Shown here: piece after piece, positions 5,098 to 30,720 of the stretch | How the letters are laid out: every line of letters starts with the position of its first letter | Position numbering within the stretch: the stretch's first letter is position 1 | NCBI RefSeq assembly: GCF_028389875.1 | Contig: NC_084679.1 | Coordinates: 310,001-374,000, forward strand | DNA from: Rhea pennata | Lineage: Eukaryota > Chordata > Aves > Rheiformes > Rheidae | Direction of reading: 5' to 3' | Length of the DNA stretch: 64,000 nucleotides | Made by a program: the position numbers and the translations under genes | Notes under the pieces: generated by a model | Seen by the model: the letters and a program-made list of their open reading frames with translations, nothing else | Database searches by the model: none | What the model was told of the DNA's origin: nothing

Positions 5098-8000
5098 CTA
5101 CAACTCCATTTCTTCTTCAGCACACCCAGGGATCCCCAAACTATCATACAAATTTGGAGACATTGAAGTCTGTTGTGGTTCAGGGAATGAGTCAGTCTGT
5201 GGGTGAAAATCAGCTCCTGGTGATGATTGCTTAGCTTGACACTCTTCCGTACTCTGCTGCTTGAAATTCTTCACAGAAACAGATGTCAGCTTATCTGTGA
5301 GAAATTCAGGAAGAGGTTTCCAAAGCACCAGCTCCATAGAAGGACGGCTCCTAGAAGGAATGGAGACTCAGTTGAATTAAAGTTCTCCAATCACAACTAT
5401 TAAATGCAGAAGACCAGTCAGTATCTTCATCCTTTGTGCTAACCTGGAGTTATGTCTCAGAATGCACATACCAGTTTTTTTTCCTATTAAATTTCCTCTT
5501 CCTTAACTAGTTCCATTACTTCTAGTTCTAACCTGTATTCAAGAAAAATCTTTTCTGTTGCTCCAAACTTGATGACCACTGTTGGTCACACTTCAGGACC
5601 TTCCTCCTTTGGAAGCTCACATACATAAAAAACAGAGTATGCATGCGCATTCAACATATTTCATCCTGTACAAGTGAGGAGTAAAAACAGACAGCTTGAT
5701 GACCACTAGAGTTACACTTGCTTCTGTTTTATATTAAGATAGCATTTCCTGGTTTTGACCAGATAAATGGTGTGTTATACAATGCTGACTGCATCATACA
5801 GTAATAAAGGACATCTCCACAAACATAACAGACTGGGTCTCTCTTCTAATTCGCATGTGTTAGCTACATAGCACCATGATTTCCTCCAGAACTTACATAG
5901 ATTCTATTATTTTCTTTGTCAGGACTTCACCAAAATCCCTCTTCATCCCTTTTTTAAGGGTATCTGACAGGATAAGAGTGGGCAGATTGCTAATATTTCC
6001 ATCAGCATGAACTTCCTCATCTTCATCAATTATCCTAGGAATGGAGGGGGAAGAGGGAAATAAACACCTTTGAGCATACTGTTAATAGGCACATCTACTG
6101 CAGACTACAGTTATATCTACATGCACTGCATTGTACAGTGTAGATATCTGACCTAGGTTGGGTACCAGAAGCAGCGGGGCTGTGTTAACATGAGTCTCTC
6201 TTGGGCCAATTTAACCTAAGAATGAATGTTAAAATATAAGCCACACAAGCAGCTATGCCATTTCTGGTACCTGAGCTAGCTTTATTATCTCTGCATTATC
6301 CAGCAGTATGCAATGCAGAAATACACTAAGAGAAAGAAAACAAATTCACTTCAGGGGAAAGTGTACAATTCAGTCATATTACAAGAATGAATCTTAGCTA
6401 TGCAGTAGCTTAACTTTCTCAGCTCCCCATGTCTTAACCTTCAGAATTACTGAAAAGCTACCAAACACTGTTCTTAAACTTTTTGTGTCATTTTAACTCC
6501 AGATAAATGGATGCAATATCCTTAAAGGTTAAGCATTTAGAACAAACTTAAGGCAATGCCTTTGTTTTTGATGCACCTTTCAAAGAAAATTTAACAGAGT
6601 AGCTGGGAGGGACAGAGAACAATCCTCTGAGAGAGCCAAAGCAAACTTCGTAATGTAGAAATAACCAGATAGTAAGACAAATATTACTGCTCTTATTTGC
6701 CCACAAAATATTAAAATTGTGCAACAGTACCTTGCATCTTTTCCAAATTTCTTATGGAGTAATAATCACCAAAAACATCTTTAGTCCTGTAATTTCTATA
6801 ACTTTTGGCTTTTCTAATGACTGTTTGCGAGAGTCACTTTAGAATATTTTGGAATACTAGCCCAACTGTAATCAACTGATATATACATGACATTCTCAGA
6901 AACCTTTCAAAGGCAAGAGCTTAATGCACAGTACATTTATTAAATGACTGCTTATAGTCGTCCCATTATAGCCATATCAGACCTTCTGACATTTAACTAT
7001 AAAAGGAACCCAGTCTTACTGCATACATGCAGAAAGATCTTACTGGTTCCTGCTATTTTGTATACTAACAGCTTCACATTTATCCCGAGCTACTAGAAGA
7101 ATTAATCAGAACAAGTTGCAATTGACAAAGAAAATGGTGAGCTAAACCTAACCAGACAATATCAGTTAAAGTTTGAGTTCTGGACAGTCACATAAGAATG
7201 ATTCAAAACCCACCCTGCTATTATGATGTTGCATAATTTTAAGGAGATAGTTATTTATTCAGTATATCTTGCTCTATAGCTCTCAAGTTCAGATCATAGT
7301 ATTGACCCCAAGAGGCATAAGACCATAGGGAGCCTAAAAAGAAATCACTCGAACAAAAGGTTCATCTCAGACTTGTAGCAGCATGGTTGTACTGCTCAAC
7401 GCTAATTACCCCTGAATGCCCAGCAAAAAAAAAGGAAAGCTAAGCAAAGCCCATCTACTCAATCCCTGCATTTACCTGTCCTCAATTTCCTGAAGCTTCC
7501 TGCGAGCAACCTCGCATTGCTGTTCCCCCATTGTCTGATCCATTTCTTCACCGGGCATTTCTAACATGGCAGCTTCAGGACGGCTGCCACCATACTGACT
7601 TGCTACCTCCCCAGCTGCCTGCTGACCTGCACAGAGAATCCATTCTTCAGTGCTGGGATTCAAAGGGGAATTTTTGGCTCCTGTCAGTCTCTTCTTCCTC
7701 ACAGGACAACTAGGAAACAAAACCAATTTACAATTGTCAAAAAAGAAATTGTACAGAGAATTTTTTCCTGTAACTTACAGGAAAAAAAAAATTTAGAAAG
7801 TCACATGCATTTCAAAGGATTTGACACACTACGGAAATTAAATCTCCTTCTCCGAAAGCATGTAAACCAACATTCCTCTTACTAAAATGCTACACAAATA
7901 ATTAGGTGAATAAAATGCATTTGGGCTCATATCTGCAATTCAGGGGAAGAGTTCCAAACAGAAACAGATAGAGGTTCCTTTTCTTTATATCTTGTAGATG

Positions 8001-9191
8001 AGATGCACTGAAATCCTTACAGAAAATAAAAAGCAAATTAAGATTTTTCAGACCAAAGAAGACAAATTTAATTTACCCTTCTGCCTCTTCTTCTAGTTTA
8101 TGCTTCTTTCCACAGCGAACAGACACACTGCAGAAAAAGAGCAAATGGTTATGTGGCTAGTAATTATCTTCCAAGTACACTGGGATTTCCAAATACTATT
8201 CTTCCTCCCTTTTAAAATTTCACTACAACAAATAACAAACGCTAAAACCAATTCATAACGTGTCACCAGCTGTGAAGGAAGTAGAAATTTTGGACAATAA
8301 ATGACCACTTTGTTCCAAAAGAAGTCAAAGAAGAAAGGAATTACTCAGTTCTCTGAGCTGAATTCCATGATAATTTCTCTTCCTGTATGGTATTTGTTTT
8401 TTTCCCACAGTGAGCAAGACTGATTTTTCCTACAGTTCAAATGTTTCGAGAAGTAGTATGTGATCCAACTTCACTCTGTCGCACAGTGACATACTCAAAT
8501 TAAATATGACCAAAAAATAAAATTCTGCATCATGGTTTTTGTCTTCACACAAATACTTTGTGCTCACGTAAGAAAAAAAGTAAAATAAAAGTACAAGAAC
8601 TTACAAGAACATCGAGATCTAGCTAAAAATGACCACATTTCTTTCCTTTTTTGAAAGCTTCTTCATGCCCCACCAATAAACTTAAGACAACAGGACAACC
8701 AAGGCAATTCTAATACTGCAGAAGCAGTGGCATACTAAAAAAGCACAAATTATGGTCTTTTTTGAAAAGAAAACTTAAACTTTGCATAGGCCTACTACAA
8801 CGGAGCCATATTTTCCTCCCCCGTTCGGGGAGATGTTTTCTACTTACTGGCTGTGGCACTGCTGCTGGAGCAAGCCCGGGGGCCGTTCTGCGTGTGTGAA
8901 GGAACCCACCGGTGCAACACTCAGACCCTCGTTATAGCTCCCAACCGCCGCTAAGGAGGCGAGGTCAAAGCTGTTCCGCAGCCGCAGGTCAGCGGAGCCG
9001 CAGCCGCGGACGCTGCCGTTCCCGTTCCCTGTCATCGTCACCATCCCCGGCTGCACCGACTCCAAGCCGACGGCTCCGGGCTGCGAGCCGGCCCCCGGCT
9101 GGCCGTGGCGGTCCGGGGCGCCGGCCAGGGCCTGCGGGAGCTCTGCGGCCGCGACAGGGAGGCCGCGGCAGGGTCTGCCCAGCGCTGCCAT
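5098..9191 (-). CDS. CCDC117: CCDC117, coiled-coil domain-containing protein 117 (5 coding exons)
   Basis: Coding exons in minus-strand order: 9191-8848, 8127-8077, 7709-7476, 6034-5897, 5350-5098. Every junction is GT/AG and phases match (2, 2, 2, 2), giving 339 aa. I chose ATG 9191 because MAALGRP matches the human N-terminus; an upstream in-frame ATG at 9242 is less likely. Landmarks are [10 protein letters not shown] in exon 2, CPVRKKRLT (a basic, NLS-like stretch) and [14 protein letters not shown] in exon 3, the acidic IIDEDEEV at the start of exon 4, [12 protein letters not shown], and the terminal EEEMEL. These match human CCDC117, which is 279 aa from memory; most of the extra length is in the Gly/Ala-rich exon 1. 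The protein is poorly characterised; a nuclear role is inferred from the basic stretch. It shares a CpG-island promoter with SLC2A11. Confidence 0.95.
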
Positions 9192-10200
9192 CTCCTGCTG
9201 CCGGGAGAGAGGGACATGGACACGGCCCGCGCGCGGCGCCACTAACGGCCGCCGACCAGGTCAAGTCAGGTTGCGCCGCGTCGCGTCGCGCCGCATCGCG
9301 CCGCGCCCCACAGCCGCTCACCGCCCAGAGCTCCACGCCGTGACGCCCAGGGCTCGCTCAGCCGCCCGCGCCACCCAGTGCGCTCTGCCGCGCCGCGCCG
9401 GGCTGGGCCCGGAGCGGGACGACACCACCAGCTCCCAGCTCCTTCCAGGCCTTTCGCGGCGCCTGGGGAGCGCGCCCGCAAGGCACGCCGGGAGCCGTAG
9501 TCCGGGCGCGGGGCACGCCGGGAGCCGTAGTCCGACCCTGGCGCACGCCGGGAGCCGGAAGGCGGTCGCGGGGCACGCCGGGAGCCGGAAGGCGGTCGCG
9601 GGGCACGCCGGGAGCCGTAGTCCCGGCCGCGCGGCACGCCGGGAGCCGCGGGGCCGGAAGGCGGTCGCGGGGCACGCCGGGAGCCGTAGTCCCGGCCGCG
9701 CCGCTCGCCGGGAGCCGCGGGGCCGGAAGGCGGTCGCGGGGCACGCCGGGAGCCGTAGTCCGGGCGGCGGGCGGCGCCCACCGGGTGTGAAGGCCGCGCT
9801 GGCTGCGGTGTCGCCCTGGCCACGGGGCAGCCCAGGCCTGGGCATGACGCTGCGATTGCGGCTGCTGCGCTGCCGCCGGGCGGCGGGCGGGGAGCCCCGC
9901 TGCCTTGTCCGGCCGTGCCGCGAGGAGCGCGCAGAGCTGGTGGCCCCCAGGGAGCCTCGAGGGTGCGGCGCCAGGCCGCGGACGGGGGGGGCTGCTGTGA
10001 CGGCCAAATCCCTGTCAGGTGAGGAGCTTAGCACACAGCTGCTCGCTGCCCCGCTGCCCGGAGTGACGTGGAGCCGCCAGCGCCCCGAGCATGCCGCCGA
10101 GGCACGAGGTAACTGCACTGCTTTTCCTGGGGGCCGCGGGCAGGGCTGGCTGCGGGCGCCTCTCCTGCTCCACTGGTGCGGGGAACCGCTCCCGCGTTAA
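8850..10200. promoter_or_regulatory. Bidirectional CpG-island promoter, CCDC117 / SLC2A11
   Basis: A sharply GC- and CpG-rich block separates the CCDC117 start (9191, minus) from the SLC2A11 start (10450, plus). It contains CCDC117 exon 1 and the 9483-9770 minisatellite. Good plus-strand splice donors at 10019 (GTGAGG) and 10109 (GTAACT) could end noncoding or short coding first exons of SLC2A11. An ATG at 10091 opens MPPRHE just before the second donor, but this frame does not join the MEYQPLL frame. Long open frames here on both strands are artefacts of stop-poor GC-rich sequence. Confidence 0.8.
9483..9770 (+). repeat. GC-rich minisatellite of nine ZNF143-like units
   Basis: The core GCACGCCGGGAGCC (one variant GCTCGCCGGGAGCC) starts at 9483, 9513, 9543, 9573, 9603, 9634, 9672, 9703 and 9741. 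Spacings are 30, 30, 30, 30, 31, 38, 31 and 38 bases. The last five starts form a higher-order unit of 69 bases (31+38). Units 1, 2, 5, 7 and 9 continue with GTAGTCC; units 3, 4, 6 and 8 lead into CCGGAAGGCGG. Read on the minus strand, the first type is GACTACGGCTCCCGGCGTGC, close to the known ZNF143/THAP11 promoter element with A-to-G changes. The second type holds an ETS-like CCGGAAG. Binding is inferred, not shown. Confidence 0.9.
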
Positions 10201-10449
10201 GGGTTCCCTGAAAGCGCCGCCGCGAGTTGCTGCCTAGACGCCGTGGCTTGGTAGGAGCTTACGGAAGTCGGACGTTGCTGTCGTGAGGGTCTCGTGCAGC
10301 ACTGGGAGGGATTCCGGTGGCTGTGCTGGAGTGCAGGCCCGTTGCCCCTGCTCCAGGGCAACAGCAACGTCGTTTCTTTGGCACCTTTCACTCCTGTAGA
10401 GTAGTTTACTAAACTTTTCAGAGGAAATGTAATTCAGCCCCTGCTAAGA

Positions 10450-13400
10450 ATGGAGTACCAACCCCTGCTGAGAGGGTCTGGCATGCAGCGCAAGGTAAGC
10501 AGAGCCATCTTAACCTGCAAGGATGACTCCTGTGGAGAGTTTGTGAGTTTAACAATGAATTGCCAGTTGGAAAGTCTCTAATCGTTTCATGTTTAGTTTC
10601 AAATCAAAATTACATTAAATGATCAGGCTTGTGAATTTTTTATGTTTTCCAGTGACTCTTAGCTGTGTTATAAGATGGGAACTGTAAAAGCGCATTTTCT
10701 GATTCTTGTGTTTTTACACTGAGTGTAAGTTGAGCTGGCTTTTGTTTCTGGCATGTTTCTGAAATTAGGTGAAAGTGCTCATAAGCAGTCATGAGTTAAG
10801 CAGCTCTCACAGAACAGGTAAGGCTGTTGTCTCTGCTCTGAAAAGTCAAGCTCCAAGCTCCCATGTGACACTGCATGTGAGGGTAATGAGCAGACTGATT
10901 TATTTGGGCAGGAAGAAGAATGGAGGTATCGTAACAAAATATAAGTTATAAGATATGTGTTAATTTTTCTGGATTTGCCTTTCTTTTTTTCCTTCCCCCT
11001 CTCTGCCTTAAGAACTTGAAGTTCTTAACGATAAGTTTTAACTATCTATCCTGCTGATCAGGAACCTGAGTTGCAGGGAAAGTAAGGAGCTAGTTCAGGT
11101 CAAATGGTCAGTGGCGGAGACAGGAATCAAATCCATGGGTCTTGCCTTCTATTTCTGTGGGTAATTAATGAGATTTGCACTTCTACATGTGACTGGTGTT
11201 GCTAATGCATCAGTGCTGCTACTTTTTTCTTAGTCTTGATAAGGATGATGTTGCTTTTTATTTATTCTGCGTTAAGCACGCTTTGATTGTCTGTGGTCAT
11301 ATTATGTAGATTAAAACAACGACCTTCGTAAATGTGTGAGATCTTTACAGGAATGTCTTGACATTGGATTATTCTAGAATTAAAGTGCTAACCATGAAAC
11401 TTCATTCTGGTTGGTAGAAAAAGATAGTATGGGCATGGAGGAGTTAGGACAAGCAATCATGTGATTTAACATTTGATTATGTCAAAGAAAATTCTTCTCA
11501 ACAAGAACGAAATCAATATTTGATAAACACTGCTTTTTCTCTGATCTCGTTGTACTTCAATGGATGTCACCAATGAGCTCTATCAGAGAACTGGTCTCCT
11601 TCACTCATTCTGGGTGTTGGAAAGAGCAGAATAATATTGAGAACTCCAAACTCTTTTGCATGGAATTGTTCTAAAATTACCTCTTCTTCTTAGTAATTGG
11701 AAATAGAGGGCATATGGCAACATTTGATAAGAATCTACTGTCACAGACACACATCAAAGAAGTAGAAGATTAATAGCATGGCTGTTTTAAAGACAAGAGA
11801 ACATTGCTTGGACCATGGATGACCTTTTATGGCTTTCAGACTTTTAATGTAGTTAATCTTCATGCTATCTTAAAAATTAATCAATATTACTATCTATTTA
11901 TAGAAAGTATAAGATATGTAATAATTTGTGGGGAAAAAATTACTATATCAGTGTATCAACTCAAATACCATAGAAGAATCAAGCAAACCTCAACTGATCA
12001 TGACTGAAGTCAGCATGAAATGTTTTTCCTCCTGCAGATGTTTGTGAAGTTGTATAGTTTTATAACCAAACACTTTCACTGTTCAAAAATAACTGACATA
12101 TAATAATGATAAATAACATAATAATGATTGTTTCACTGTGATTTTCTTCTAGACAGAATATGCGTGAATTGAAGGCCTTACCCCTTTAATGCCCCTATTA
12201 CTCTGTTTTGTTCTTTAGCTCCCCAGCTGGACCTTATTTCTGTCTGTCTGTGCTGTGGGAATTGGAGGGACCTTTCAATATGGATATAATGTTTCCATTA
12301 TCAATGCACCCACCCAGGTAAAACATTGTGCTGCTGTTCATAGGGTTATTTTATTGTGAGGGAGGTGTTCTATCTCACTGGACTGAGAGGCCAAATGCAC
12401 TTTGACTGTGATGGCAGTGGGAACCAAAGCAGATTTCCTCTAATATGAAGGATTCTTGTTGATTTCCTAACGGGTTTCATAAGAATTTGTTGTTTGAATA
12501 TCTCCTGTTAGAGGTATTCCACGTCTGATAAAAGTGAAAAAACATGCCACCTAAAAACCTTTTAGAAAGTCTGTTTTTGAAGGATTAACTGAATGAATAA
12601 GTAACATCTTTCATTAATACCTTTGACTAATGTAGCCCAGATATTAAAGATAGTTATAGCAGTCTATTACAAGACAGCATATTGGGAAAGATCTTTTTAG
12701 AGAGCGAAAAAACTTGGTTTGGTGATGTCTGAGCCTGAATCTTTAGCATTTCCACCCACTTGTTAGTTTTGCATCCATTACTATGGCCTTGAGGATTCTG
12801 CATACTTTATGGCTGACTCAAGAGGGACTGAGCTAATGAAAGAGCTAATCACTTTCTTATTAAAGTGATAGATACAATTTTCTGCTGCCAGCTGATTTAT
12901 TTTCCTATCCATCTGTGAAGACTGCATTTGCTATACTATTGTATGCTTTTCACAGATGTTAAAATAAGCTGATCATGAAGGAAGATGTCGTATGCTGGAA
13001 ACGGGGAGTGTCCAGGAAGTTGGTTCATGTATTAATTCTGTATTTGATGGCTAAAACCACAAGTCTGTAGTTGCAGATGCATGTCAGTTCAAGAGTTTCT
13101 GAAGGCAAATTTTACGTGTAGAATAACAGTTGGAGAGTACTGACATGTGAAGACTGTAAGAAAGGAGAAGGAAAATTTGAGTTGAAAAGGGGAATTTTAC
13201 TTTGAAGTATTGGATTACACTAAAAAGAAAATTTAAATGTAATGTCAGGATGAATTTTCTGGCAGTAGGATCTGTTAGATTTTGAGAGACTTCTTTTCTG
13301 TGAGGTGTTTCTAAAAGCAAGTGGGACTCGCCCACCTTCCCTGTCCCCTTTTCATTCAGAAGGACCTCAAAGCTCTTTCCCAGTGGTATATGGAAAGGTT

Positions 13401-16400
13401 ATGTGTCTCTAGTGGAATATAGACTGTCCTGAGATAAGGTACCAAAGGAAAGCCACTAGGCAGTTTTTGAGATGTATGGGGAATAGGAAATGGTATTCTG
13501 TTCAGAGAAGATTCTGCTAGTTATTAATATTTTCAATATAATGCCACTAAGATAGCTGTTTTTTGTTAGCTCCCGGAATGGGATTTCAAGATTTAGATGA
13601 AAATTATTTATAGCGCTATGTTATAGGGCTTATACATAGTGCTACACATTCCTCTTTCTTTTGTACTGCAGCATATACACAGCTTTTTAAATGAAACCTG
13701 GACTAGTCGTTATCACAAGAAGCTAAATCTGAATTTGCTGACTTTTCTCTGGTCTGTCATTGCTTCTATATTTTCACTTGGAGGCTTGTGTGGAGCCCTT
13801 ATAGGAGGCAGCATGGCAGTCCGGCTAGGCAGGTGAGTTGTAGCAGCAAGCAGAGATATAGCATGTTTTCTTTTCACACTTTCTCACTGTAAAGTAAAGT
13901 AAATAAATAGAAAAAGAATGGGAGAAAATGTACCTTAGGTAATTAAAAATGTTTTCACTAGGAAGCAGTTTTCTAGCAGTAATTTACGGTTTATTCTAAT
14001 GTTACTTTAAAAGAGGAAGAAGGATGATTTATAGTCTTTCAGTCCAGGCCTTCCATTAAATTTCTTGAAATCTAAGCAGAATTATGCATGTATTGTATGG
14101 AATGAAACACAGTTTCCCCATACACACATTTACAGCCTTCATGCCAGTAAGGACATGCTGCCTAATTTGCAACATTTCATAAGCATTCCATGTAGATACA
14201 GCATGAATGAACATGAATACGCCCCTACCTTGTTATGCATTTCTGCTGTATTTATGCCTTATGTTTGGACTTTATTTTTAAATATGAGTAAATAGTTCTG
14301 TTAGATTCTAGTGAATAGAGTGTCTTCAGAACAAAGCCCTTTTCTCCATATTATCAAAAAGGAAAAGGTCTTAAAAAACATGTTTCTCTATGTATCCATA
14401 ATGTTTTCTTTTTTTTTCCCCCTTTAGAAAAGGAGCTCTTTTGATGAACAATATCATAGCAATACTGGCCTCCATTTTAATGGGAATCAGTTTTCCTACA
14501 GGAATGTTTGAGCTATTGATTGTTGGCAGGTTTTTGATTGGCATAAATTCAGGTAAATGAATTTCTATTCCTACTTTCAATAAACTATAGTGAATGATAA
14601 CTTATTACTGCTGATTCTGTACATAGTGTGATTCATCTTTGTATGCCATTTTGTAAATATGGTGACAAAAATACTCTGCAGTCTGAATTGGAATCTGAAG
14701 GCTGTTAAGTTCATAGAGAGATCAGAAAAAGTCTGATTTCTTATATATTTGCTTCTCAAAGCAAAATCTAGAGCCTAAAAAGAATAGTGCTGTAATGCTG
14801 ACCTAATGTAATATGACATGTTATTAAAGGCATGGAAAATCATATCTCTGGTGGCATAAGGGGAATAATTATTTATAACGATGGTGGTATTTTGTCACAA
14901 GTTTCAGCAGTGGGCTGTGGCAAAGATTGTATCACTGGAGGAACTGAAAAAAACTCTATCTAGAGCTAGTTGAGGGAATTCTTGTAGCAATAGTTTAGGA
15001 AGAACATTATAAGAGGCAAAAGCCAAGTAGATCAAGAAAACTTGAATCAGGATAATGGGCAAAATAACTTTGATACAGCCTCCTGTGGAAAGAGTCCTTT
15101 AAACACAACAAAATTCAGAAGAAACTGTTCTGAGTTTCCAAGGATAAACTCCTAGTTCTGTATGCTTTAAAACAAGCTCTTTGTTGCAGCAGATGTTCCA
15201 TGCTGCATGTTGAATGTAAACTCAATCAGAATGCTTAAAGGCCTGGAGTTTTAGGAAGAAATAGAGAGGACAGTTAAAAAGAATCTAAAATAAACCAATG
15301 TGTCATAAATGGTGCCTCAGTATTTTTCAATAAACAGAATATGGTAAAGGATCAAACTATCTTTAGCATAGAAATCCAGGGTACATGTTGATTATCATGA
15401 ACTGTGTGAAAACCTAGTAAAATTTAATCCATTAAAAGAATTTTTTTTTCTTGCAGGTATTGGGCTCTGTGTGCAGCCTCTATATCTTGGGGAGGTTGCC
15501 CCAAAACATCTTAGAGGTGGTATGGCCATGGGCAGTTCCATCTTTTTGACAGGGGGGATTCTGGCAGGACAAATAATTGGTTTGAGGTTAGAAATACATT
15601 TTTTTGTGTGTGTTTTGTATTAGTCACATGTAGAGAGTTTCAATTGCCTGCAAAGCAGTCATTTTAACAGTGAATCAGCTGAAGCTCTGATCTACCTCTG
15701 GGTAGATCTATAGAAGATCTATCTGTAGGAAGAAAACCCTGTTTTCACTGCCTTATTTCTACTATTGCAAACCATCTGTACTACTCCGTATGGAGGTATT
15801 CTCAGATTAGATGGGTCAGCCAGAACAGCTTCAGTAAAGCAGGTACGGTTATGCTGAATTGGTGTTTCTTCCAGTTTCTTACTGGAGACAGTGGGGCATA
15901 ACATAATTCGTAAGACCAGACTAAGAGTAAAGATTAATTTATGCGTTTTAGCACTACAGCTGATCCTTGTCCTTTCTGAGCTCAGACCAGGTTGCTAATG
16001 ACTTTATCAAGTTGGGTCTTGAAAACTTCCAAGAGTGGAGACTGTACAATGTCAAAATGAACAGCTTCTTTCATGAACTCTGCTGGAAGCTTCCAGCTGC
16101 CTTAAGAGCCACTGTTAATACCTGAAAAATAGCATATCATCTGTTGTGCCTCTGTGCTGGTACTTAGAGCCACTGGACTTCCTTTTCTTTTTCTATATTG
16201 CCACTTTCTTAACTACTTTTGCTGGATACTTCAGGCATGAAGTCCTACCACATTCTATGAAATAAAGTAGAAAACAAGCTTCAGGCTATATAATTTTGTC
16301 TTACCTAAAAGCTAGGATCACTATTTAAAATGCAATACAATTTCTATTTTAACATGTTTGTATTGCCCACAATGCATCATTCTGCTGACTCTAGCTATAC

Positions 16401-28800: not shown

Positions 28801-30214
28801 TAAAAAAAAAATAGGAATTTGGAAACAAATGTTGTTACATCTATTTTAGTGTAAATGATTTTCTAGAGTACTTATGTCTTTAAGTAGAGCTAACTTGCAC
28901 AGACTCGTATTTAATAAACTTCAAGTACGTGAACTTACTCAGTGAAGTATGCATTAACAGAGTCTGTTAAAATTAACTCCATAGGTAGACCCTAAAAATA
29001 AACAGTTAATCAGAGCAAGAAAAGTCACAAAGGCTGCAAAGAGCCTGACTCAAATTTAGAAGGAACAGGTAGGGCCAAAGACAACATATGAAACAGGTAA
29101 ATTAGTGACATAAGCAGGAAGTGAGAATACAGTAAAGTGTTAGACAAAATAGTGGTGTACAGAAAGGCTGATAACTTTTAGAAAGCTTGTTTTTGCCCCC
29201 TCTTCTGTCCTAGGTAGTCCTGTTTCTTTTTCAGAGGAACACAAAATAGCAAGTTAGTGGTAGAGTCTGAAGAATTTTATAAAGCTCTAGTTTGTTACAT
29301 TATCACCAGCTGCCCTCTCTACCTATGATTGGTTAGGTAAGTGTTAATACAGAGTGTAATGGAAACCTTACTAGATAGAGGCCACGGCTCAAAGGATTCA
29401 GAAGGGTTTGGTAGGCTTTGTTAAGCAAGGAAGAGTGCTGCTCAGAGTAGTACTGTTCTTTCTGTCAACAGAAAAACAAATAATAGCAGCAAGTTATGCA
29501 TAATAATAAATGGCAAGATACATTACGCTTAATTACCTGCAGAGGAATAACATTTCCACAGCAATACAGGTGTGTAGAGCTGAAAGCTCATTTTAACAGA
29601 GATGAAACGCAGAGCATGGGAGAGGGCTGGGCAAAACGGAGCCTTGGCCCCCTCCGGTGACCAAGGTCATGGAGCCGGCAGGAAGCCCGCGAGCTGGCGC
29701 TCCCGCCCGCTTCTCAGGCGGCAAAGCCCGGAGGCCGCTGGGGCCCCCGGGGAACAGCGGCGGCGCTGGGGGCGGCCCCGGCCGCCGCGGGGAAAGGCCG
29801 GGCCCGGGGCGCCGCCACCGGGCCGCACTCACCGGCGGCCTCTGGCCGAAGCGGTCGGGGTGGAGGGCGCGCTGCAGGCTCCGGAACCGCCGCCGCAGCT
29901 GCTGCTCGTCGAGGCGGAAGGAGCGGTCACTGCGGAGAGAGCGGCTCCGTGAGCGCGCGGCCGCCCGCGCCGCGCGCCGCGCCGCGCCGCACTCACCAGG
30001 CCAGGACGCGGAAGAGGTCAGGTCGCGGCCCGGGCGGCTGCAGGGACCGGCAGGCGGGACAGAAGCGGGGCAGCCCCCCGGCGCTGGGGACGGGGCCGCC
30101 GCAGCTCCAGCACCGCAGCGCCGCGGCAGAGCCCGGTCCGCCGCAGCGCGGCCGCGGCGCCGCCTCACAGGCGCGGCGGCCCCGGCAGAGGAGCTGCCCC
30201 AGCGCCGCCCGCAT
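25814..30214 (-). CDS. HSCB: HSCB, mitochondrial iron-sulfur cluster co-chaperone (6 exons)
   Basis: Exons in minus-strand order: 30214-29997, 29929-29833, 29461-29372, 28794-28650, 27261-27214, 25905-25814; 229 aa against 235 in human (from memory). HSCB is a DnaJ type III protein. It brings the scaffold ISCU to the HSPA9 chaperone for iron-sulfur cluster transfer in mitochondria. Seen here: an Arg/Ala-rich N-terminus suited to mitochondrial import, a zinc-binding pair CWSC (35-38) and CPAC (52-55), and a J domain with HPD at 96-98. The C-terminal helical domain includes [13 protein letters not shown] and ends in KNKKIPS. The Zn-finger cysteines are those expected in animal HSCB. The start at 30214 is the first ATG of the frame that precedes the cysteine pairs. 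It lies head to head with CHEK2. Confidence 0.95.
26248..26267 (+). repeat. Poly(T) tract of about 20
   Basis: A homopolymer in HSCB intron 5. Read on the minus (HSCB) strand it is poly(A). No attached retrosequence is recognised. Confidence 0.85.
28281..28396. repeat. (TG/CA)(TA) compound microsatellite
   Basis: About 115 bases of alternating purine-pyrimidine sequence, with TATATATATATA, ACACACAC and TATACACA blocks, lie in HSCB intron 4. The Tyr/Val/Cys-rich minus-strand open frame over it is an artefact. Confidence 0.9.
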
Positions 30215-30720
30215 CCCCGGCCTACAGCTCCCAGCAGCGCCCGCGGCGCGCCCGCGCCCGCATTGGCGCAGTTCGTAGCGAGGATTCGCGGGGCGCCTGC
30301 GCACCGAGGCGCGCGGCCCCAGGTTCGCGCGGCGGCGGGCGCGGGCGCTCCCATCCGTGAGTTCGCCCCCTCCCCGCCGGGCGCCTGGTGCCGCGGGCCG
30401 GGCTCGGCGTCGTGTCCTGGGAGGCCCGTGCGCTGCCCCCGGTCCGGCGCGGCCGCTCTCGCGCGCTGTGGCGGGGCGCTGGGAGGCGCGGCGGGGAGCG
30501 CCGGGCGCCGCCGGCGGGCGGCAGGGGGCGCTGCGGGGCGCGCGTGTGTGCGTGGGGGCGCTGCGAGGGGGCGGCGCCGCCGGCGGGCGGCAGGGGGAGG
30601 CCGCTGTGGCGGGGTGCGGCGGGGCCCCGCCCCCGTCGCCACCCACAGCTCTGTCGCCTCCCTCAGGGAGGTGAAGGCAGTAAGGGGCAGCACTGAACGC
30701 TGCCTTGATTGAAGCACTTG
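29600..30720. promoter_or_regulatory. Bidirectional CpG-island promoter, HSCB / CHEK2
   Basis: A dense GC/CpG block covers HSCB exons 1 and 2 and the space toward CHEK2. An inverted CCAAT box (ATTGG) is at 30262-30266 and a ZNF143-like site at 30222-30244. There is no TATA box. CHEK2 transcription probably starts between 30250 and 31320, since the CHEK2 ATG (31907) is preceded by an acceptor-like CTTTGAG. A purine-rich, GC-rich imperfect repeat (GGCGGGCGGCAGGGGG) occurs at about 30512 and 30582. Confidence 0.75.
30222..30244 (+). promoter_or_regulatory. ZNF143/THAP11-like promoter element
   Basis: CTACAGCTCCCAGCAGCGCC resembles the known ACTACAAYTCCCAGCATGC element. It lies just upstream of the HSCB ATG, where such elements usually sit near transcription starts. 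Binding is inferred. Confidence 0.55.

Follow-up and report, generated by a model that had tools for sequence, protein, structure and literature searches.

The DNA between two divergent genes of Rhea pennata raises the question of why a short GC-rich unit stands there nine times in a row, what kind of element the unit is, and what such an array might do. The window, meaning the whole 64-kb stretch of DNA that was analysed, holds the features given below, with the matrix scores explained later in the text. Published work is cited by PMC identifier, in each case from a partial text of the source.

8801..10400, no strand assigned: CpG island within which the array and the two probable start codons lie
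9189..9191, minus strand: probable CCDC117 start codon with leftward transcription, from a putative first-exon assignment
9482..9771, plus strand: the array, nine units in tandem with GC 0.84 and CpG observed/expected 1.19
9483..9503, minus strand: unit 1, complete M4/SBS2-type element whose motif ACTACGGCTCCCG is read on this strand, matrix score 34.6
9513..9533, minus strand: unit 2, complete element with CGCGGG ahead, matrix score 37.8
9543..9561, minus strand: unit 3, CCGGAAG (9555) instead of the THAP11 half, ZNF143 side weak (13.1 bits, best shuffle 12.7)
9573..9591, minus strand: unit 4, CCGGAAG (9585) instead of the THAP11 half, ZNF143 side intact (23.2 bits)
9603..9623, minus strand: unit 5, complete element, matrix score 36.8
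9634..9652, minus strand: unit 6, lacking the THAP11 half, CCGGAAG at 9654, ZNF143 side intact (23.0 bits)
9672..9692, minus strand: unit 7, complete element, matrix score 36.8
9703..9721, minus strand: unit 8, lacking the THAP11 half, core GCTCGCC, CCGGAAG at 9723, ZNF143 side weak (13.2 bits)
9741..9761, minus strand: unit 9, complete element, matrix score 36.8
9555..9729, plus strand: four ETS-like CCGGAAG sites, at 9555, 9585, 9654 and 9723
10091..10108, plus strand: probable initial coding exon of SLC2A11B, six codons long, with GTAACT after it

TRF called the array at 9482-9771 with a period of 30 and 9.0 copies, and a second call at 9579-9769 gave a period of 69 with 2.8 copies and a 95% match. 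Measured directly, the unit starts (9483, 9513, 9543, 9573, 9603, 9634, 9672, 9703 and 9741) are spaced by 30, 30, 30, 30, 31, 38, 31 and 38 bases. These results agree with the original prediction of a nine-copy repeat of a GC-rich unit of 30-38 bases, and GTAGTCC was counted in five of the nine units, as had been claimed. The unit core GCACGCCGGGAGCC is exact in 8/9 units, the exception being GCTCGCC at 9703, and units 5 to 8 consist of two 69-base blocks that are identical at 67 of 69 bases. All five complete sites lie within 279 bases, a homotypic cluster in the putative promoter region. The probable start codons on either side, at 9191 and 10091, are divergent; 900 bases separate them, and the array occupies the middle of this interval, so the predicted location between divergent genes holds as well.

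The neighbours had been named as CCDC117 and SLC2A11, and the first of these stands, the minus-strand exon at 5098-5367 being CCDC117 by Pfam (E 4.1e-23). To the right, the plus-strand exons at 13627, 14402 and 15372 are of the sugar-transporter type by Pfam, and no second copy of such exons was found at a convincing score in the window. HSCB, which adjoins CHEK2 in human, was found at 29993-30205. In the available text of the pigeon eye-colour paper, the gene order is CCDC117, SLC2A11B, CHEK2 and TTC28 (PMC8662629). When the exon at 10091-10108 is joined in phase with those at 12219 and 13672, the tryptophan of the third exon becomes residue 49, and the nonsense change of pigeon SLC2A11B is W49X (PMC8432899). 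Judged by gene order and by this tryptophan, the gene to the right of the array is in all likelihood SLC2A11B and not SLC2A11. SLC2A11B is described as lost in mammals and as required for iris pigment in the pigeon (PMC7935293). A possible alternative first coding exon of the sugar transporter was also noted at 10450-10494 (MEYQPLLRGSGMQRK, then GTAAGC), which would move the tryptophan to position 58.

The identity of the unit was approached through printed consensus motifs. Read as reverse complement, each of the five complete units includes ACTACGGCTCCCG, which matches M4 exactly (ACTAYRNNNCCCR; PMC5006282); these are the only 5 exact M4 matches in the 64-kb window (shuffle mean 0.37), and the other four units carry 3 mismatches each. 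A search for GCRYGCYGGGARYYGTAGTYC that tolerated as many as 3 mismatches likewise gave 5 matches in 64 kb, all in the array (shuffle mean 0.02). The longer M4 consensus RRACTACANNTCCCRRNRNRC is matched with one mismatch (A to G) in 5/9 units and with five mismatches in 4/9, and nothing as good as one mismatch was obtained from 500 and a further 1000 shuffles of the array, 200 shuffles of the island or 20,000 column-permuted decoys. From the 15-base Ronin motif CTGGGARWTGTAGTY the unit differs at 3 of 15 positions, all towards C on the given strand, and a match of this quality, reached by 10/20,000 decoys and 10/200 island shuffles, is not rare in the island; all three differences are of the A-to-G kind by which the original prediction had characterised the unit. 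The printed SBS2 27-mer is matched with 10 mismatches (1/20,000 decoys as good), and the printed human SBS1 27-mer with 13, no better than decoys (164/1000 as good).

The core of the element requires separate consideration. It reads CGGGA in 9/9 units and in none of them TGGGA, the printed human ZNF143 core. Human ZNF143 motifs, in the part of PMC11118474 available, have TGGGA as their anchor, inside a degenerate site of 29 bases; M4 as printed allows CGGGA (PMC5006282, partial text). The array element was filed as M4-type and as merely resembling a ZNF143 site because CGGGA replaces TGGGA. We also considered the loss of TGGGA as an argument against the whole class, and this argument was weakened by genome-wide counts. 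A degenerate 21-mer, GCRYGCYGGGAGYYGTAGTYC, has 108 matches in the Rhea pennata genome (1.27 Gb) and 0 for the reversed control. The 100 listed places of these 108 fall into 77 loci besides the window, and one site per locus, with the window and the arrays on C4 and C46 left out, gave a set of 75 sites, in whose frequencies the bases inside the 21-mer are biased by the search pattern. In these pattern-selected sites the core is CGGGA in 45 and TGGGA in 30. A CGGGA core is thus common among such sites in this genome, and matrices trained on human TGGGA may miss bird sites.

Outside the searched bases, positions -6 to -3 of the 75 sites read C in 58, G in 61, C in 72 and G in 57, where the local background frequency of either base is about 0.36. 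This flank is free of the search constraint and so provides independent evidence for the full ZNF143/THAP11 site class. Reversed, the flank CGCG corresponds to the CCGCG end that is common to the printed SBS1 and SBS2 sites in the available text of PMC7154149. In the window it is present in 7/9 units (9513, 9573, 9603, 9634, 9672, 9703 and 9741); six of the nine read CGCG followed by GG or CG, and the remaining three are CGCGCC at 9703, CGCAAG at 9483 and CCTGGC at 9543. CpG-island-like DNA surrounds 72/75 sites, compared with 49/154 locus ends. The complete array copies carry CC before GTAGT, which occurs in only 4/75 genomic sites, most M4-class sites of the genome having CT or TT.

A scoring matrix of 29 positions was built from these 75 sites elsewhere in the genome; since the search pattern dictates its core columns, the flanks alone are independent evidence. 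The five complete units scored 34.6, 37.8, 36.8, 36.8 and 36.8, within the range of ordinary genomic sites and below their median, with 10 to 25 of the 75 sites ranking lower (leave-one-out minimum 26.3, median 39.1, maximum 43.6). A comparison with shuffled GC-rich sequence had been set beforehand as the test that could refute the prediction, and the best array score was 37.8 against 4.8 for the best of 200 array shuffles. The incomplete units scored 1.5, 11.5, 10.0 and 0.2 on the full matrix. On the ZNF143 side alone they scored 13.1, 23.2, 23.0 and 13.2, and compared with a best shuffle of 12.7, two of them keep this side well and two barely. Taken together, the sequence comparisons and the genome-wide counts support assignment of the unit to the ZNF143/THAP11 (SBS2, M4, Ronin) class of promoter elements. 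The predicted ZNF143-like identity is partly supported, at the level of this class, and it is qualified in that the element is complete in only 5/9 units, reads CGGGA for TGGGA in 9/9 and resembles the SBS1 27-mer no better than decoys do.

The array in the window is one of several in this genome. BLAST of the array against its own genome returned 43 matches. An array was tallied wherever five or more sites of at least 15 bits lay within 500 bases; such arrays were found in 9/82 loci, which is not a genome-wide rate, five of the nine having been found as the window's own or as resembling it. They are the following.

Window: nine units, as above
C4, 191 kb: period 30 (11.2 copies)
C46, 374 kb: periods 50 and 246 among others
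C5, 68.97 Mb: period 34 (23.4 copies)
C22, 8.70 Mb: periods 31 to 71
C18, 8.24 Mb: period 33 (4.9 copies)
C2, 0.51 Mb: periods 32 and 96
C42, 1.09 Mb: periods 33 and 64
C1, 214.87 Mb: sites of mixed strand

Site strand is uniform in the other 8/9 arrays, and linkers vary among arrays. The C4 unit agrees with the first unit of the window at 28/30 bases, so these two arrays might share an origin. Eight of the nine arrays are CpG-rich and the C46 array is CpG-poor (0.13). At C46:374-377 kb (L017), 44 sites of at least 15 bits were counted, with TpG where other arrays have CpG, as if the DNA had been methylated and had decayed. A 46-base tandem unit of 7.6 copies at C27:2236411-2236759 (L102) carries only the ZNF143-side half and holds no 15-bit site.

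We consider it probable, with room for doubt, that an element of the ZNF143/THAP11 class has multiplied to nine units in a CpG-island promoter that CCDC117 and SLC2A11B have in common and that the array serves as a multi-site dock in both directions. This reading builds on the anatomy, the element class, its recurrence in CpG-island-like DNA across the genome and the other arrays documented above. According to the partial texts available, THAP11 (Ronin) binds ACTAYR and recruits HCF-1 (PMC5006282), and ZNF143, which is inherently bidirectional, occupies overlapping sites in turn with THAP11 (PMC7154149). In length, one unit roughly equals the site of 29 bases that has been reported for ZNF143. 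The five complete copies could dock THAP11 with HCF-1, or ZNF143 as a competitor, and in the four others the THAP11 half has been lost, with an ETS-like site in its place. The work of Michaud 2013 reportedly groups HCF-1, ZNF143, THAP11 and GABP at CpG-island promoters in its title. By our analysis, the array would most likely drive initiation both ways as such a dock. The copies would most likely have been gained via unequal exchange or conversion, the CpG island being close to the end of a chromosome, and their number could tune the genes. The core promoter of mouse Gsk3a offers a likeness, since it too holds many copies of the element: 11 Ronin-binding motifs are described there, motif number correlates with loop number, and Ronin by itself circularises motif DNA in vitro (PMC10329844, partial text). 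Compared with Gsk3a, known here by description and not by sequence, the bird array is a head-to-tail minisatellite with ETS-like sites and lies at a divergent gene pair. In the pigeon, very low levels of SLC2A11B are reported for skin and feather buds (PMC8432899), which would be unlike a housekeeping target and, on our analysis, counts against the multi-site dock. The CGGGA core, the below-median scores and the rare CC of the complete copies, the decoy-level SBS1 match, the commonness of 3-mismatch Ronin matches in island shuffles and the weak ZNF143 side of two incomplete copies count against it as well.

A possible, though not a probable, account is that the element belongs to the right class and has expanded neutrally, as part of a GC-rich minisatellite that arose where a CpG island is prone to recombination, so that one or two copies work and the others are passengers. 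Birds are described as having no PRDM9, and zebra finch recombination as commoner at CpG islands with GC-biased conversion (PMC12047795, partial text); together these would favour unequal exchange and a T-to-C drift of the unit. The near-identity of the two 69-base blocks is also what recent duplication would yield in the absence of selection. A distance of at most 1.25 Mb to a contig end is seen for 7/9 arrays, compared with 16/73 of the other loci (unadjusted p = 0.0015), a limit picked after the data had been seen and with two of the nine arrays on contigs of at most 1.1 Mb; on contigs over 5 Mb the proportions are 5/7 and 14/67 (p = 0.010). The unrelated promoter motif TCTCGCGAGA clusters too, in 3/46 loci listed with a largest cluster of 3, as counted by hand from the first 50 (on three contigs) of 261 places, the reversed control having 695. 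The excess of large SBS2 clusters over those of TCTCGCGAGA was not significant (3/78 versus 0/46, p = 0.29). Because selection is not needed and an unrelated motif clusters as well, the passenger reading keeps an appreciable share of our expectation. Against it, at least eight loci with differing periods and linkers suggest that this element class has been hit repeatedly, as a count and not as a rate relative to other elements.

Rather doubtful is the wider proposal that the ZNF143/THAP11 element recurrently multiplies itself in this bird lineage, with CpG-island recombination near chromosome ends repeatedly making multi-site docks out of single sites, and with the number of copies determining how strong a promoter is and how promoters contact one another. 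If this were true, a housekeeping-type switch would be tied to SLC2A11B and hence to inherited variation in iris colour.

It is distinctly unlikely that the array binds mainly ETS proteins of the GABP type along with other GC-box proteins, the M4 likeness being an unbound relic marked by CGGGA and by CC before GTAGT. The four CCGGAAG sites speak for this, as does the CGGGA core of all nine units. These sites sit in the four units that lack GTAGTCC and are absent elsewhere in the 64-kb window on both strands, and the array shuffles gave a mean of 0.07 and at most 2 in 1000 shuffles, against 4 observed. As regards other motifs, one SP1-type GGGCGGG is present in the island, outside the array, and simple patterns for NRF1-type, CCAAT and TCTCGCGAGA sites found none in the island. 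The strict quadruplex pattern had no match on either strand, and two loose ones were found on the plus strand. The relic argument is countered by the 45/75 pattern-selected genomic sites with CGGGA, mostly in CpG-island-like DNA, and by the CGGGA that printed M4 permits.

That a GC-rich minisatellite resembles the motif by chance is very improbable; the genome-wide counts, along with the flank outside the search pattern, already refute this reading for the most part. The 13-base M4 match is indeed reached in 2/500 array shuffles, 3/200 island shuffles and 9/20,000 decoys, and prokaryote contigs totalling 257 billion bases yielded 5 matches to the 21-mer pattern, all bacterial and read as chance, with 0 in viral contigs. 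Three of these bacterial places (L001, L003 and L005) scored 24.0, 36.4 and 17.8 on the matrix, as expected, since the pattern chose them. None of the shuffles or decoys equalled the match to the longer consensus, and the genome counts (108 versus 0), the flank and the matrix scores also argue against chance. We give hardly any credence to the open frames across the array (420 codons on the plus strand, 292 on the minus) being coding, because, at 84% GC and with a unit length divisible by three, frames without stops are to be expected on either strand and in several phases.

Compared with the M4/Ronin/SBS2 element as known, the array is alike in its exact M4 in five copies, its CpG-island promoter setting and its CGCG flank at the far end, comes within one mismatch of the longer consensus, and is unlike in having CGGGA for TGGGA, in the CC before GTAGT and in the four of nine copies that lack the THAP11 half. 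MNS16A at human TERT is similar in that its tandem unit carries a transcription-factor site and differs in factor and gene, and copy-number variation is known for MNS16A (PMC5438627, partial text). In the literature covered, which is thin for subscription papers, no description of tandem arrays of the ZNF143/THAP11 element in birds was found. One genome offers a defined promoter element in natural copy numbers that range from one to about 44, which would allow the effects of THAP11/HCF-1 and ZNF143 dose, spacing and half-sites to be measured in native settings. One of these arrays stands at the probable promoter of SLC2A11B, on which eye colour is known to depend in the pigeon.

Two minor observations concern other sites of these kinds. 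At C2:164549575-164549666, three TCTCGCGAGA sites lie in 92 bases, 0.27 Mb off the contig end. Within the window, a single SBS2-like site with TCCCA intact lies at 30219-30239, on the minus strand of the matrix and just ahead of the probable HSCB start, with a score of 18.3; among 1000 shuffles of its island, a match to the long M4 was seen in 29 and a Ronin match in 1.
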